Assembly: GCA_017551505.1 (NCBI GenBank)
Contig: JAFZLL010000028.1
Location: forward strand, 1 to 64,000
Direction: 5' to 3'
Source: Eubacteriaceae bacterium
GTDB taxonomy: Bacteria; Bacillota; Clostridia; Eubacteriales; Anaerofustaceae
Length of the DNA stretch: 64,000 nucleotides
Each line of letters begins with the position of its first letter. The stretch's first letter is position 1. The notes below the pieces were generated by a model. That model was not told the origin of the DNA. It saw nothing but the letters and a program-made list of their open reading frames with translations, and did not search any database. Shown piece by piece: positions 43,752 through 54,281 of the stretch. Made by a program: the position numbers and the translations under genes.

Positions 43752-43979
43752 ATGACATTGGATAAACTGGGAGTCGGAAACTCCGGAATTATCACATCAG
43801 TTGGCGGTGAAGGTGCGCTGCGCCTGAGACTACTGGACATGGGGCTCACCCCACGGGCATCTGTTACAGTGGTAAAGGAAGCTCCGTTGGGAGACCCCAT
43901 CCAGATAAAGATCAGAGGCTATCTGCTATCACTGCTCATAAGTGAAGCGAAAAGAATCGAAGTGGAGGAAATCAAATGA
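43752..43979 (+). CDS. feoA: Ferrous iron transport protein A
   Basis: The 75-residue SH3-like protein assists FeoB. LDKLGVGNSGIITSVGGEGALRLRLLDMGLTPRASVTVVKEAPLGDPIQIKIRGYLLSLLISEAKRI is the full FeoA pattern. AGGAGG precedes the ATG. It overlaps feoB by four bases (ATGA). Confidence 0.96.
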   Translation: MTLDKLGVGNSGIITSVGGEGALRLRLLDMGLTPRASVTVVKEAPLGDPIQIKIRGYLLSLLISEAKRIEVEEIK

Positions 43980-45961
43980 GATTTGCTTTGGCGGGAAATC
44001 AAAACAGCGGAAAGACTACTCTATTCAACCAACTCACGGGATCTAATCAGCATACTGGGAACTTCCCTGGGCTGACCGTGGATATGAAGGAAGGGCTGAT
44101 TTCTGGAGATAAAGAGCTTACTATCGCAGATCTGCCTGGTATTTATTCCCTGCGGCCATACTCATCCGAAGAGATCATTACAAGGGATTACATCCTTAAT
44201 AACGATCCAGATGCAATCATAGACATTGTTGACGCGACAAATATCGAACGCAACCTATACCTCACTCTGCAGCTCATCGAGATGGGCAGACCTGTTGTGC
44301 TGGCACTGAACATGATGGATGAGGTACGTGCAGGCGGTGGCTTTATAGATATAAAAGCTTTAAGTGAAGGACTGGGCATACCCGTGGTGCCGATAGTTGC
44401 ATCAAAAGACGAAGGCATCGGTGAGCTCAGACGTATACTTGTAAAAACAGCAAAAAATGGCGAAAAACCTAAGATATATGACTTCTGCAGACCAGGCCCT
44501 GTTCACCGCTGCATACACGCCGTGGCCCATGTTGTCGAGGACCACGCTCAGAACGCCGGAATGTCTCCGAGGTTTGCCGCGATGAATCTCATCGAAGGTA
44601 ACTCCGACATTATCGACAGGCTGTCGGTGGATGATAACGAGAAAGAACTCATCGAACACAGCGTCAAGGAGATGGAGAATGAATCGGGCCTTGACCGCAA
44701 CGCTGCCATCGCCGATATGCGCTATAGCTTTATCGAGGAGCTTTGTTCCAGATGTGTGAAAAAAACGGCAGAAAGTCCGGACAGAAGAAGAAGCGATAAG
44801 ATCGACTCGATCCTTTTGAATAAATACTTCGCGCTGCCTGTTTTCTCGCTCATCATGATTGCCATCTTCTACCTGACCTTCAATGTGATCGGAGCTTATC
44901 TGTCAGATATGATGACACTGGGAATCGACTGGTTCACCGTGCTGGTAGACAATGCTCTTACTTCATACGGGTTGAACCCGGTGGTAAAGAGCATGGTCAT
45001 CGACGGAGTATTCAGCGGAGTGGGCAGTGTCCTTTCCTTTATCCCGATCATCGTGACTCTTTTCTTTTTCCTGTCAATGCTGGAAGACACAGGCTACATG
45101 ACCCGTATAGCTTTTGTTATGGATCGCCCGCTTCGTTCTATTGGATTGTCCGGACAGAGCATCGTACCGCTTCTGATTGGTTTTGGCTGTACAGTCCCTG
45201 CAGCCATGGCTTCCCGAACCCTCGGCTCGGAAAGAGACAGGCATATGGCTGTGCTTCTGACTCCTTTTATGAGCTGTTCAGCAAAGATACCAGTCTATTC
45301 AATGTTTACCGCAGCATTTTTTGCGAAAAGGCGGTTTTTAGTAATGGCAGGCCTGTATTTTGGAGGCATTCTGGTAGGTATCGTATATGCCATGATAGCA
45401 AAGAAAATATCAGGGGAAAAACACGCTGCGCCGTTTGTTATGGAAATGCCCAATTACCGTATGCCTTCCGCCAGAACGACTTACATGCTCATGAAACAGA
45501 AGGCGATGGATTTCATGCGTAAGGCCTTCACAATCATCTTTATGGCCAGCATCGTGATATGGTTCCTGAACACCTTTGACAGCCGCCTTAATGTAACAGA
45601 TGACAGTGCATCGAGCCTGTTGGGAATTTTAGGGAGCCTGATGGCACCTGTTTTTGCCCCGATAGGTCTAGGAGATTGGCGTATCTGCGCTTCCCTTGTG
45701 GCTGGTTTCGCGGCAAAGGAAGCTGTCGTTTCCACACTGCAGGTACTGATGAACGGTCAGGAACTTTCGTCGTTATTCACAAACGCAGCTGCCTGCTCGA
45801 TGCTTGCTTTCACACTGCTCTACACTCCATGTGTGGCGGCTGTGGCAGCGATTAAAAGGGAACTCGGCGGCACTGCGAAGACCATAGCCGTAGTCGCCGG
45901 GCAGTGCACTATAGCATATGTTTGCGCGGGGATCGTCTATTATGCGGCCAAGGTCTTATAG
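43976..45961 (+). CDS. feoB: Ferrous iron transporter B
   Basis: The 661-residue protein imports Fe2+. The N-terminal G domain shows G1 GNQNSGKTTLFNQLTG (7-22), G2/switch TGNFPG, G3 DLPGIYSL and G4 NMMDE, followed by a helical GDI-like spacer and a membrane domain with two Gate motifs, including LLIGFGCTVPAAMASRTLGS and a second Cys motif LTPFMSCSAKIPVYSMF. Usual length is 650-750. It is in an operon with feoA and a small Cys-rich protein. Confidence 0.97.
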   Translation: MRFALAGNQNSGKTTLFNQLTGSNQHTGNFPGLTVDMKEGLISGDKELTIADLPGIYSLRPYSSEEIITRDYILNNDPDAIIDIVDATNIERNLYLTLQLIEMGRPVVLALNMMDEVRAGGGFIDIKALSEGLGIPVVPIVASKDEGIGELRRILVKTAKNGEKPKIYDFCRPGPVHRCIHAVAHVVEDHAQNAGMSPRFAAMNLIEGNSDIIDRLSVDDNEKELIEHSVKEMENESGLDRNAAIADMRYSFIEELCSRCVKKTAESPDRRRSDKIDSILLNKYFALPVFSLIMIAIFYLTFNVIGAYLSDMMTLGIDWFTVLVDNALTSYGLNPVVKSMVIDGVFSGVGSVLSFIPIIVTLFFFLSMLEDTGYMTRIAFVMDRPLRSIGLSGQSIVPLLIGFGCTVPAAMASRTLGSERDRHMAVLLTPFMSCSAKIPVYSMFTAAFFAKRRFLVMAGLYFGGILVGIVYAMIAKKISGEKHAAPFVMEMPNYRMPSARTTYMLMKQKAMDFMRKAFTIIFMASIVIWFLNTFDSRLNVTDDSASSLLGILGSLMAPVFAPIGLGDWRICASLVAGFAAKEAVVSTLQVLMNGQELSSLFTNAAACSMLAFTLLYTPCVAAVAAIKRELGGTAKTIAVVAGQCTIAYVCAGIVYYAAKVL

Positions 45962-45973
45962 GATGAGGACATC

Positions 45974-46138
45974 ATGCTTGAGATTATCATCATTGCCGCT
46001 CTTCTGATTTGGTTCATATATGCTTTCAAGTATATAAAGAAAAACGGTGCTTATGCCACAGTGTGTTCGGAATGCCCGATGAAAGAAAGATGCTCCAGGT
46101 CGCTGGAAAAGAACAGGCATAGTGATCACTGTAAATAG
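45974..46138 (+). CDS. FeoB-associated Cys-rich membrane protein
   Basis: This 54-residue gene, too short for many gene finders, has one membrane helix (IIIIAALLIWFIYAFKYI, residues 4-20) and a Cys-rich cytoplasmic tail with C31, C34, C40 and C53. Proteins of this pattern follow feoB in many Firmicutes and may be the functional equivalent of FeoC. GAGG lies six bases upstream of the ATG; the gap from feoB is 12 bases. Confidence 0.85.
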   Translation: MLEIIIIAALLIWFIYAFKYIKKNGAYATVCSECPMKERCSRSLEKNRHSDHCK

Positions 46139-46146
46139 GAATGTTG

Positions 46147-46182
46147 AATAATGGACAGGTCTGGTGCTTGTCCATTATTTCA
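46147..46182 (+). terminator. Terminator between feo operon and the Rrf2 gene
   Basis: AATAATGGACA (46147-46157) pairs perfectly with TGTCCATTATT (46169-46179), an 11-bp stem with an 11-base loop. The U-run is short, so it may also serve the convergent Rrf2 transcript. Confidence 0.65.
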
Positions 46183-46257
46183 ATAATGATTAATTATGTG
46201 GAATCAGCAAACGGCTGCTTGAAGAATGCAGAGGTTGTCATTATACTCTTAATACGA

Positions 46258-46677
46258 TTATATGGTCGCAGTTATCCCGTCTGCCAGATCCTGTATCGTG
46301 TATTTCCCGAAAAAGTCCTGCACTACTCCGTAAAACTCTTTCCACATTGGAAGGATAGCGCACTCTTTCTCCCTCTTACAGGTATCGGCTCCCGGGCTCA
46401 GGCAGGTGACTGCATAGAAATCCTTCTCTACTGCAAATATCACTTCCCATGCGGTAAGCTCGCTGGGATCGCGGGAGAGACTGTATCCCCCGTCCCTGCC
46501 TCGTACACTGGATACGATCTTGTTCTCGACAAGTGCTCTCAGTATGGCTTCCAGGTATTTTTCGGAAATACCCTGCCTGTCCGCAATCTGTTTCAAGGGA
46601 ACAGGCCCCTCGCTGTTATGCTGTGCCAGATCTATCATTACGCGCATCGCATAGCGTCCTTTGGTTGAAACGATCAT
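46258..46677 (-). CDS. iscR: Rrf2-family (IscR-like) transcriptional regulator
   Basis: The 139-residue protein has an N-terminal winged helix (STKGRYAMRVMIDLAQH to KIVSSVRGRDGGYSLSRDPSELT) and three Cys at 92, 100 and 106 (TCLSPGADTCKREKEC), close to the C92/C98/C104 iron-sulfur ligands of E. coli IscR. It is divergent from iscS, so control of Fe-S assembly by Fe-S status is the natural reading. GGGAGG lies six bases before the ATG at 46677. CymR-type cysteine regulation is the alternative, but CymR lacks these Cys. Confidence 0.9.
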   Translation of the reverse strand: MIVSTKGRYAMRVMIDLAQHNSEGPVPLKQIADRQGISEKYLEAILRALVENKIVSSVRGRDGGYSLSRDPSELTAWEVIFAVEKDFYAVTCLSPGADTCKREKECAILPMWKEFYGVVQDFFGKYTIQDLADGITATI

Positions 46678-46706
46678 ACCGTGCCTCCCACATTCTTGAT
46701 GAATCT

Positions 46707-46734
46707 ATTATAAGCTCATATCTAAGAAAAGCAA
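46707..46734 (-). promoter_or_regulatory. Promoter of the Rrf2 regulator gene
   Basis: Minus strand: TTGCTT (46729-46734), 16-bp spacer, TATAAT (46707-46712). The -35 box sits beside the first 19-bp palindrome. Confidence 0.6.
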
Positions 46735-46739
46735 ATATA

Positions 46740-46758
46740 TCCTATTGACACAGTAGGA
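46740..46758 (+). promoter_or_regulatory. Palindromic Rrf2 operator 1 over the iscS -35 box
   Basis: TCCTATTG ACA CAGTAGGA: seven of eight arm positions pair; the TTGACA hexamer of the iscS promoter lies inside it. Confidence 0.7.
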
Positions 46759-46773
46759 ATATATGTTTATAAT
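46745..46773 (+). promoter_or_regulatory. Consensus sigma-A promoter of iscS-iscU
   Basis: TTGACA (46745-46750), 17-bp spacer, TATAAT (46768-46773), both perfect. It is flanked and overlapped by two matched palindromes. Confidence 0.9.
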
Positions 46774-46782
46774 CGGTATATA

Positions 46783-46801
46783 TCCTACTTAACAAGTAGG
46801 A
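46783..46801 (+). promoter_or_regulatory. Palindromic Rrf2 operator 2 at the iscS start site
   Basis: TCCTACTT AAC AAGTAGGA is a perfect 8-bp inverted repeat with a 3-base spacer, the same design as operator 1, centred 43 bp (about four helical turns) from it and just after the expected transcription start. Confidence 0.75.
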
Positions 46802-46819
46802 ATTAAGGAAAAGGACAGA

Positions 46820-48010
46820 ATGGACAGATTCATTTATTTGGACAATGCTGCTACAACGAAAACCTCTCCTGAAGTTATAGAGGCAATGCGTCCGTATTTC
46901 GGTGAATTATTTGGCAATCCGGCAAGTGCATATACTTTCGCAGGAAATATCAATTCGGATGTAGACAGGGCCAGGAAGGCGATCGCAGGCTTTATTAATG
47001 CTTCTGCGGACGAGATCTACTTTACGTCGGGGGGCAGTGAATCCGACAACTGGGCGCTGAAGGGGACAGCGTTTGCTCTTAAAAATAAGGGGAAACATAT
47101 TATAACGACTGTAATCGAGCATCATGCAATCCTCAATGCCTGCAATTATCTTGAAAGAAGCGGTTATGACGTCACATATCTGAGTGTCGATGAAAACGGC
47201 CTGATAAGCCTTGAAGAACTAAAGGCGGCTATCCGCCCTGATACGATTCTCATTTCAGTCATGTTCGCCAACAACGAGATCGGCACCATCGAACCTATCA
47301 CGGAGATCGGACGCATCGCCCATGAGCACGGGATACTGTTCCATACTGACGCTGTTCAGGCCTACGGGCATATCCCCATCGATGTAAAACATCTTGGGAT
47401 CGATATGCTGAGCGTCAGCGGCCATAAGATCAACGCTCCTAAAGGAATAGGATTCCTTTATATAAGAAAAGGGATAAAAATCGAACCTTTGATTCACGGA
47501 GGCTCTCAGGAAAGAGGCAAGAGAGGAGGAACGACCAATGTGGCTGGCATCATCGGACTCGCTAAGGCTACCGAACTTGCTGCGGAAAGCCTGGATAAAC
47601 GGGCAGAGTACGAGAGAGAACTCAGGGATTATCTGATTGGCCGCATAGAGAATGAGATACCATATGCCCTGCTGAACGGCGACAGATCAAAAAGACTGCC
47701 CAATAATGTGAATTTCTGTTTCCGCTTTATCGAAGGCGAATCGATGCTTTTGCTGCTGGACCAGTATGGAATCTGCGCTTCTTCGGGAAGCGCATGCACA
47801 TCAGGCTCGCTGGATCCTTCTCATGTTCTTCTGGCTATAGGACGTCCGCATGAGATCGCACACGGCTCTCTCAGACTGACACTATCCGAGGAAACGAGAA
47901 AAGATGATATAGATTTTACGGTAGATACATTAAAGCATATAATAGAGCGGCTCAGAAGCATGTCTCCGCTTTATGAAGACTTTATAAAGGAAAAGAGGGC
48001 TGGAGCATGA
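46820..48010 (+). CDS. iscS: Cysteine desulfurase
   Basis: The 396-residue PLP enzyme takes sulfur from cysteine for Fe-S clusters and thio-modifications. The PLP Lys is in SVSGHKINAPKG near 206; the persulfide Cys loop is SSGSACTSGSLDPSHVL near 327. EHHAILNAC and HTDAVQAYGH are standard. It overlaps iscU by four bases. Confidence 0.96.
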   Translation: MDRFIYLDNAATTKTSPEVIEAMRPYFGELFGNPASAYTFAGNINSDVDRARKAIAGFINASADEIYFTSGGSESDNWALKGTAFALKNKGKHIITTVIEHHAILNACNYLERSGYDVTYLSVDENGLISLEELKAAIRPDTILISVMFANNEIGTIEPITEIGRIAHEHGILFHTDAVQAYGHIPIDVKHLGIDMLSVSGHKINAPKGIGFLYIRKGIKIEPLIHGGSQERGKRGGTTNVAGIIGLAKATELAAESLDKRAEYERELRDYLIGRIENEIPYALLNGDRSKRLPNNVNFCFRFIEGESMLLLLDQYGICASSGSACTSGSLDPSHVLLAIGRPHEIAHGSLRLTLSEETRKDDIDFTVDTLKHIIERLRSMSPLYEDFIKEKRAGA

Positions 48011-48465
48011 GCCAGACAACGGAATATTCAAAGAAAGTACTGGACCATTTTATGAATCCACGCAACGTGGGAGAGATGGAAGATCCGTCCGGTGTGGGCA
48101 CCGTAGGCAATGCCAAGTGCGGAGATATAATGAGGATGTACCTCGACATTGATGAAGACGGTGTGATCAGGGAAGCCAAATTCAAAACGTTCGGCTGCGG
48201 TGCGGCTGTAGCCACCAGCAGCATGGCAACAGAGCTGATAAAGGGAAAGACAATCAAAGAGGCACTTCAGATCACGAATCAGGCTGTGGCGGAGGCTCTT
48301 GACGGCCTGCCGAAAATCAAGCTCCACTGCTCTCTTTTGGCAGAGCAGGCGATCCACGCCGCTCTTTGGGACTATGCTGAGAGGCATGGTATAACTATTG
48401 AAGGGCTCACGAAACCTGTCAATGACATCGATGAGACGGAAGAGTTCTATCAGATGGAAGAGTAA
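48007..48465 (+). CDS. iscU: Fe-S cluster assembly scaffold IscU/NifU
   Basis: The 152-residue scaffold has the three cluster Cys in GNAKCGD (about 38), TFGCGAA (about 63) and HCSLLAEQ (about 105), plus Asp40. It lacks the C-terminal NifU Nfu domain, so it is the IscU-type single domain. The C-terminal tail of about 20 acidic residues is an addition often seen in clostridia. ATGA overlap with iscS. Confidence 0.95.
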   Translation: MSQTTEYSKKVLDHFMNPRNVGEMEDPSGVGTVGNAKCGDIMRMYLDIDEDGVIREAKFKTFGCGAAVATSSMATELIKGKTIKEALQITNQAVAEALDGLPKIKLHCSLLAEQAIHAALWDYAERHGITIEGLTKPVNDIDETEEFYQMEE

Positions 48466-53101: not shown

Positions 53102-53130
53102 TTGACAGGATCGAAAATATATGATAAAAT
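53102..53130 (+). promoter_or_regulatory. Sigma-A promoter of the cation exporter
   Basis: TTGACA (53102-53107), 17-bp spacer, TAAAAT (53125-53130). Transcription from near 53137 produces a leader of about 170 nt that holds the riboswitch. Confidence 0.85.
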
Positions 53131-53163
53131 AACACAGCAATTTGCACTGCAACAATCTACAGT

Positions 53164-53246
53164 ACAAACTGAGCAGGCGATGGTGCGAACCATGGGGCCG
53201 GGCCGATTTTCGGCAGCAGAATTCTAAGTCTGTGGGACGGTTTTGT
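53164..53246 (+). ncRNA. NiCo (czcD) riboswitch
   Basis: The segment ACTGAGCAGGCGATG, then GGGGCCGGGCCG and TCTGTGGGACGG matches the published Ni/Co-sensing czcD motif from memory: an outer P1 (AAACTG with CGGTTT), the conserved ACTGAGCAGGC bulge, a GCCGGGC arm and a GTGGGAC arm meet in a four-way junction. It is followed by a terminator and a CDF metal exporter, the classic target. The class turns expression on when cobalt or nickel is bound. Confidence 0.85.
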
Positions 53247-53266
53247 TCCCGGACTATTTTATATTA

Positions 53267-53299
53267 GGGGTACGGGTGTAGAACCGTGCCCCTTTTTTT
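53267..53299 (+). terminator. Riboswitch expression-platform terminator
   Basis: GGGGTACGG (53267-53275) pairs with CCGTGCCCC (53284-53292) and is followed by seven Ts that touch the AGGAG of the next gene. AACCGT in its 3' arm can instead pair with ACGGTT of the riboswitch P1 3' side. Confidence 0.85.
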
Positions 53300-53310
53300 A
53301 GGAGAAAGAT

Positions 53311-54189
53311 TTGTCAAACGAAGGGAAAACTGAAAGAGAAGCAATGCTTGCTTCTTTCACAACGATAACACTGAATGTTGCGCTATGTGCAGTAAAGATT
53401 ATAGCGGGGATTTTAGGCCGCAGCGCGGCACTCACTTCTGATGGTATCGAATCTGCCGGGGATGTGCTGAGAGGCATCATCGTCGCTGTCGGGATCAAGA
53501 TGGGTTCTAAAGAGGCAGATAAGGACCACCCCTACGGTCATGAGACGTTTGAATGCGTCGCGGCGCTTATGCTCTCCTTTTTCATCGGGTTCACCGGTGT
53601 TGCACTGGGTTGGGAGAGCGTCCGGACACTCTTTACAAAAGAAGGGACGCAGTCGCCTGCTGTTATTGCGCTTATAGTTTCTGCGGTCTCGGTAGCCATC
53701 AAATATGTCATGTATAAGACAGCTTCCGTAAAGGCGAAAAAGCTCTCTTCTCCGGCTCTTGAGGCGGAAAGCAAAGACCATCTTTCAGACGTATTCGCGT
53801 CTTCCGGCGTGTCGTTGGGAATAATCGGTGCTATGCTTGGCTACCCGCAGGCGGACAGCATCGCAGGTGCTGCCATGAGCGTGCTGATCGTGCGCACCGC
53901 CATAGATATATTCAGAGAGAACGCCGCGAAGATCACAGATAAATCCTGCAGTGATGAGGTGGAGTCAGAGATGGCGGAAGCGATCCTTTCCGTCGATGGC
54001 GTAAAAAGACTGGATCTGCTGAATACAAGGCAGTTCGCAAATAAGATATACGTAGAAGTAGAGGTCGCTGTAGATAGGGATCTGAACCTGACTGCGGCCC
54101 ACGATATCGCCCAGGAGGTCCACGACAAAGTCGAGAGAGAATTCGCACCTGCGGTAAAACACGTGATGGTGCATGTAAATCCGACCTGA
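53311..54189 (+). CDS. Cation diffusion facilitator, likely Co/Ni (Zn) exporter
   Basis: The 292-residue protein is a CDF-family transporter with six membrane helices and a C-terminal cytoplasmic domain (about 205-292). Metal-site residues appear as SDGIESAGDV (helix II) and DHLSDVFASS (helix V), with HPYGHETFE in the loop. The NiCo riboswitch upstream indicates that the exported metal is cobalt or nickel. It starts with TTG at 53311, set by AGGAG six bases before. Confidence 0.92.
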   Translation: MSNEGKTEREAMLASFTTITLNVALCAVKIIAGILGRSAALTSDGIESAGDVLRGIIVAVGIKMGSKEADKDHPYGHETFECVAALMLSFFIGFTGVALGWESVRTLFTKEGTQSPAVIALIVSAVSVAIKYVMYKTASVKAKKLSSPALEAESKDHLSDVFASSGVSLGIIGAMLGYPQADSIAGAAMSVLIVRTAIDIFRENAAKITDKSCSDEVESEMAEAILSVDGVKRLDLLNTRQFANKIYVEVEVAVDRDLNLTAAHDIAQEVHDKVEREFAPAVKHVMVHVNPT

Positions 54190-54238: not shown

Positions 54239-54267
54239 AATATCCCTCCCGTATAAGGAGGGATATT
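54239..54267. terminator. Bidirectional terminator
   Basis: AATATCCCTCC (54239-54249) pairs perfectly with GGAGGGATATT (54257-54267). A/T runs on both sides serve the CDF gene on the plus strand and the ABC exporter on the minus strand. Confidence 0.8.
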
Positions 54268-54281
54268 CTGTATTTCGGGTC

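Follow-up and report, generated by a model that had tools for sequence, protein, structure and literature searches.

The locus

The window analysed here is a stretch of 64,000 nucleotides from Eubacteriaceae bacterium (assembly GCA_017551505.1, contig JAFZLL010000028.1, positions 1 to 64,000 of the forward strand). In it, a leader of the NiCo (czcD) riboswitch class precedes the gene for a CDF exporter, which forms a single-gene unit behind the switch (Table 1). A first-pass annotation of the same DNA had delimited the element as 53164-53310; it is larger than this, starting with a sigma-70-type promoter upstream of the aptamer and a conserved sequence block. A similar promoter-like site is also found in the same position at a second locus of the same genus (L004).

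Table 1. Features of the riboswitch and exporter locus, in window coordinates.
Feature	Position	Strand	Remarks
Promoter-like site TTGACA-17-TAAAAT, TG before the -10	53102-53130	+	11 of 12 consensus matches
Upstream block TTTGCACTG, proposed P0 5' strand	53141-53149	+	accompanies leader CAGTACAAA; pairing in next row
Aptamer leader CAGTACAAA, proposed P0 3' strand	53160-53168	+	8 of 9 pairs with the block
NiCo aptamer (RF02683)	53159-53242	+	70.8 bits, cut-off 37
Hairpin T1, followed by AUUUUAUAUU	53227-53255	+	-13.8 kcal/mol; usual NiCo terminator position
Second terminator T2, U-run after a 10-bp stem (53266-53293)	53266-53299	+	-19.9 kcal/mol; homologue in L004
Ribosome-binding site AGGAG	53300-53304	+	from sequence
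CDF exporter, 292 aa, TTG start	53311-54189	+	PF01545 and PF16916
Terminator-like hairpin (both strands), with the CDF gene on one side and a convergent ABC transporter gene on the other	54239-54269		

The aptamer

The three blocks of the czcD motif reported by the first-pass annotation are present in the sequence, and the Rfam check that it proposed gave a match spanning model positions 1-96, well above the gathering cut-off and with an E-value of 2e-14 over the window. The 1.56 Mb genome has no second NiCo copy, 14 control genomes gave no NiCo match, and no other Rfam family was found in the leader. The NiCo observation at this locus is real and far from chance. Class membership rests on the covariance score, a terminator overlapping the 3' half of the aptamer and a metal exporter directly downstream, and there is very little doubt that the element is a NiCo-class switch acting on the CDF gene, presumably in the ON direction of its class. 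Metal-induced read-through with cooperative transition-metal binding is a trait of that class, and by analogy would be predicted here as well.

The locus is an ordinary addition to the NiCo class. It has a platform of two terminators and a conserved 5' block that is not annotated, and its ligand is disputed. Like other members it has a full-length aptamer, an overlapping terminator hairpin and a heavy-metal exporter downstream, whereas it departs from them in the weak tail of T1 and in an extra strong T2 that is shared only within the genus. It departs from the Rfam model in its upstream block, which the model lacks.

Two terminators

A terminator that overlaps the aptamer and is mutually exclusive with it has been published for the NiCo class. 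For comparison, 83 distinct NiCo leaders were gathered from the order, class and phylum, oriented and extracted with their flanks; a collection-wide DNA pattern scan used too loose a pattern and returned mostly unrelated genomes, the useful few including L098 (Acetobacterium tundrae) and L127 (the contig of G006). A terminator-like hairpin overlaps the aptamer in 82 of the 83 loci: an arm of the GUUCC type lying downstream pairs with the P4 3' strand, GGGAC and the P1 3' strand, and a T-run usually comes directly after. The sole exception (L224) seems by eye to have the same hairpin with a longer loop. In the window, T1 overlaps these same three parts of the aptamer, and it is very probably the hairpin that competes with it. 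Few loci in the sample have a stem as weak (-13.8 kcal/mol here, where the median is -22.2 kcal/mol), and the T-run of T1 is short, at four against a median of seven.

The first-pass annotation had described a different hairpin, T2, as a terminator whose U-run reaches the ribosome-binding site of a TTG-started gene, and this description is accurate: a U7 tract follows the stem at 53266-53293 and leads directly into AGGAG and the TTG start at 53311. Its account of a NiCo switch with a terminator stands as regards the class, the CDF gene and transcription termination, but not as regards the switching geometry read from T2; T1 went unreported there. T2 has a homologue in L004, though the exporter genes of the two loci are merely 59% identical. 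Across the sample, a second terminator occurs in at most 5 of 83 loci, two of them of this genus and no more than three elsewhere, a count that rules out T2 as a widespread part of the class. T1 and T2 coexist in the computed ensemble (probabilities of 0.999 and 1.0), and T2 persists when the aptamer is enforced in folding programs, which do not model metal binding; T2 is therefore not the hairpin that excludes the aptamer, and T1 is. As to the main stop in this species, we lean slightly towards T2.

Possible coupling of the second terminator to the switch

From the complementarity of ACGGTT in P1 (53237) and AACCGT in T2 (53282), the first-pass annotation had read the geometry of the switch. 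The two sequences are complementary as claimed, but their pairing has a computed probability of 9e-5 and costs 6.7 kcal/mol when enforced, and it is rejected as the switch on these grounds. A better candidate, plausible in this genus, would be a pairing of the T1 3' arm (GUUCCC), freed on metal binding, with the T2 5' arm (GGGUAC). At L004 this duplex is predicted at -13.5 kcal/mol, with 9 of 1000 shuffles as good, and the core of the pairing is retained in the full-length fold. The window shows this register only as a transient prediction, at a stage when the T2 3' arm has yet to be made, and the duplex is no better than chance (201 of 1000 shuffles as good). Whether the T1 3' arm antiterminates T2 is, on these folding results, close to an even question, with the balance falling slightly short of it.

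The main rival to a coupled T2 is that T2 is uncoupled from the aptamer and acts as a constitutive leaky brake that keeps the exporter low, so that T1 alone would be under metal control. The formation of T2 with the aptamer enforced fits this, as does the lack of significance of the antiterminator duplex in the window. However, the U-run of T1 is poor here, which would leave little to control, and the register between the two arms is strong at L004. We regard the leaky brake as a serious contender, though a somewhat weaker one than coupling.

A conserved block upstream of the aptamer

Of 50 distinct loci that have the aptamer leader AGTACAA, 49 carry a block like TTTGCACTG at a distance of 4 to 29 nt upstream, and in the fiftieth (L197) the block is present too, with one base different just after it. 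Among 29 loci without the leader, it is present in two and absent from 27 (Fisher p about 1e-17 for the association, uncorrected for relatedness). The block was first noticed in loci of the order and class, and phylum-level loci fetched later agreed. The Rfam NiCo model starts at ACAGUAC and leaves the leader unpaired, and the block falls outside it.

Block and leader could form a helix of eight pairs in nine, here termed P0, that directly abuts P1. In unconstrained folds, where the leader can form a rival hairpin with the P1 5' strand, P0 has a median probability of 0.375; with P1 enforced, the median rises to 0.955 over 46 loci, against 0.452 for a control in which the block was permuted and any upstream pairing of the leader was counted. 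The corresponding probability in the window is 0.76 with P1 enforced; its leader CAGU has an alternative partner in the P1 5' strand, giving a hairpin with a probability of 0.88 in the free full-length fold. In 17 loci the spacer between block and leader is longer and mostly holds a hairpin of varying sequence (mean z of -2.1, the loci not being independent of one another). Compensatory change in P0 is thin: one double change from G-C to A-U (L217) and several G-U pairs were found, and the helix is otherwise nearly invariant. There is little covariation because the helix hardly varies, and P0 is for this reason rated a likely, unproven RNA structure.

Alternatively, block and leader could be a DNA operator for a repressor rather than an RNA helix, as might be expected of a near-invariant, imperfect inverted repeat that lies close to the promoter and shows little covariation within it. 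Yet the two halves are separated by anything from 4 to 29 nt, hairpins that differ in sequence occupy the long gaps, and conservation of the repeat alongside the aptamer leader extends over many families of the phylum. An operator is unlikely on this evidence, and less likely than an RNA helix.

Taking P0 as RNA, we tentatively propose that NiCo riboswitches carry a conserved 5' helix (UUUG.C.ACUG with CAGU.A.CAAA, including a conserved C.A mismatch) outside the described aptamer. P0 may work in a chain of segments complementary to one another in alternation, made up of ACUG, CAGU, ACUG, CAGU and the T1 arm, in which P0 and P1 would form in the bound state, and the leader/P1 5' strand hairpin and T1 in the free state; in this genus, T2 would be wired to the chain through the released T1 3' arm. 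This whole scheme is possible, with the odds leaning somewhat against it. If P0 is functional, a model or construct that starts at the Rfam boundary omits a conserved 5' part of the switch.

The exporter

As the first-pass annotation had held, the gene downstream encodes a CDF: the 292-aa ORF contains the Cation_efflux domain (PF01545, 2.8e-42) and the C-terminal dimerisation domain (PF16916, 1.6e-19) of the family. Its best NCBIfam equivalog models are MamM (179.7 bits), MamB (153) and FieF (121), which places it near the FieF/MamM/MamB branch, and YiiP/FieF are its best solved relatives. It nevertheless scores far under the cut-offs of these models (350, 350 and 420), so that they are its nearest named relatives only. 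DmeF, a Co/Ni exporter of the same superfamily, was ruled out at 26.8 bits against a cut-off of 250; DmeF belongs to the Zn-CDF group with HxxxD in TM5, in contrast to DxxxD here. The score for MntE is 93 bits against a cut-off of 500.

Aligned with YiiP, site A consists of E47, D51 and the DxxxD of TM5, an all-carboxylate E/D/D/D site, unlike the D/D/H/D of YiiP itself. Position 47 is Q in the orthologue. Among 27 aligned CDFs linked to NiCo elements, a set that leaves aside paralogous CDFs found in the window's own genome, 20 have an H/D/H/D site and five an N/D/D/D site, and E or Q with D/D/D occurs in this genus only. DxxxD in TM5 is a published mark of Mn-CDFs, whereas Fe/Zn-CDFs have HxxxD (PMC1868760). 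The window protein has this mark in TM5; a further Mn-CDF feature is a D in TM2, four residues ahead of the conserved D, and at that position the window protein has E. The sequence of the protein would thus point to hard metals, iron or manganese, over cobalt or nickel.

In the order and class, NiCo elements mostly precede genes for P-type ATPases rather than CDFs (46 versus 27 in a rough count; for example L129, L131 and L133).

Which metal is sensed

According to reviews, the NiCo class was first reported for Ni and Co; in anaerobic work it responded to Fe(II), calculated cellular occupancy favours Fe(II), and one of these reviews considers it apt to change the documented selectivity (PMC7689651; PMC9434800; PMC11477304). 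The contention of the first-pass annotation that the riboswitch gives the transporter a Co/Ni assignment is not supported: the metal of the class is disputed, with several authors favouring Fe(II), and NiCo elements precede varied exporters. These include many P-type ATPases as well as CDFs with three or more types of site, so the metal of the transporter does not follow from the riboswitch alone and should not be assigned from the riboswitch name.

The window contains a group of genes at 43752-48465 that comprises feoA, feoB, a cysteine desulfurase gene and an IscU/NifU scaffold gene, with an Rrf2-family regulator on the opposite strand. The feoA and feoB genes (43752-45961) and iscS and iscU (46820-48465), with the Rrf2 regulator, lie 5-10 kb upstream of the riboswitch. 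No match for CbiM or NiFe-hydrogenase was found in the 1.56 Mb genome, in which nine cobalamin riboswitch matches, eight of them over the cut-off, are spread over several contigs; nine such matches without a CbiM match suggest heavy reliance on B12 uptake. Gene neighbourhood is circumstantial evidence of a metal; taken with the literature, the neighbouring genes make as good a case for iron as for nickel or cobalt, if not a better one. In favour of iron we count the published reassignment, the nearby feoAB, Rrf2 and iscSU genes, the lack of a CbiM or NiFe-hydrogenase match in the genome, the exclusion of DmeF and the all-carboxylate site A; against it stand the DxxxD in TM5 of the CDF and the documented binding of Co and Ni by the class. 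On balance the physiological ligand is fairly likely to be Fe(II) rather than Ni or Co. The locus lends itself naturally to a test of the iron reading, having iron uptake genes and Fe-S genes nearby, an unusual, all-carboxylate exporter site, and neither a CbiM nor a NiFe-hydrogenase match in the genome.

A role of switch and exporter in manganese handling, in place of iron or Ni/Co, would agree with the Mn-CDF signature in TM5, with the N..D/D..D sites of five NiCo-linked CDFs and with the binding of Mn(II) by czcD RNA. The reported affinity for Mn is, however, far weaker (11 uM, versus 0.4 for Fe, 0.12 for Co and 0.06 for Ni), position 47 differs between the window protein and its orthologue (E and Q), and the MntE score falls far short of its cut-off, all of which makes manganese improbable. 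The first-pass model as a whole, a Co/Ni sensor with T2 as its single terminator, which switches when its 3' arm pairs with the P1 3' strand, can be set aside as very improbable, because published Co/Ni binding and complementary strands are outweighed by the energetic cost of that pairing, by the direct competition of T1 with the aptamer, which is the norm of the class, and by the disputed metal specificity.

Proposed mechanism

The best overall explanation, and in our judgement a probable one, is a transcriptional ON riboswitch of the NiCo/czcD class in front of a single-gene CDF exporter. At low metal, T1 would take up the 3' half of the aptamer and the P1 5' strand would be bound by the leader CAGU. 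Transcription would end at T1 or, mainly, at T2, because the U-run of T1 is poor in this species. At high metal, most likely Fe(II) and possibly also Ni, Co or Mn, the aptamer would close P1 and hold GGGAC, the upstream block would take up the leader to form P0, and T1 would be barred from forming. The freed T1 3' arm could then pair with the T2 5' arm during transcription of T2, and polymerase would get through to the exporter gene. The contrast between T1 and T2 in the two congeners suggests a route by which an expression platform may shift from one terminator to another.

Two further features were seen among the compared leaders. In the L220 leader, T1 is followed (+41, downstream of the aptamer) by another terminator-like hairpin, AGACTGCAGACAATAAAGATGCAGTCT, with a T-run. 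Its sequence bears no relation to that of T2 in this genus, and it may mark another tandem-terminator NiCo leader. Between T1 and T2 of L004 (L004:1385-1440) lies a run of short repeats of the AAGCTTAAAGCAAAAGCTTAAA type.
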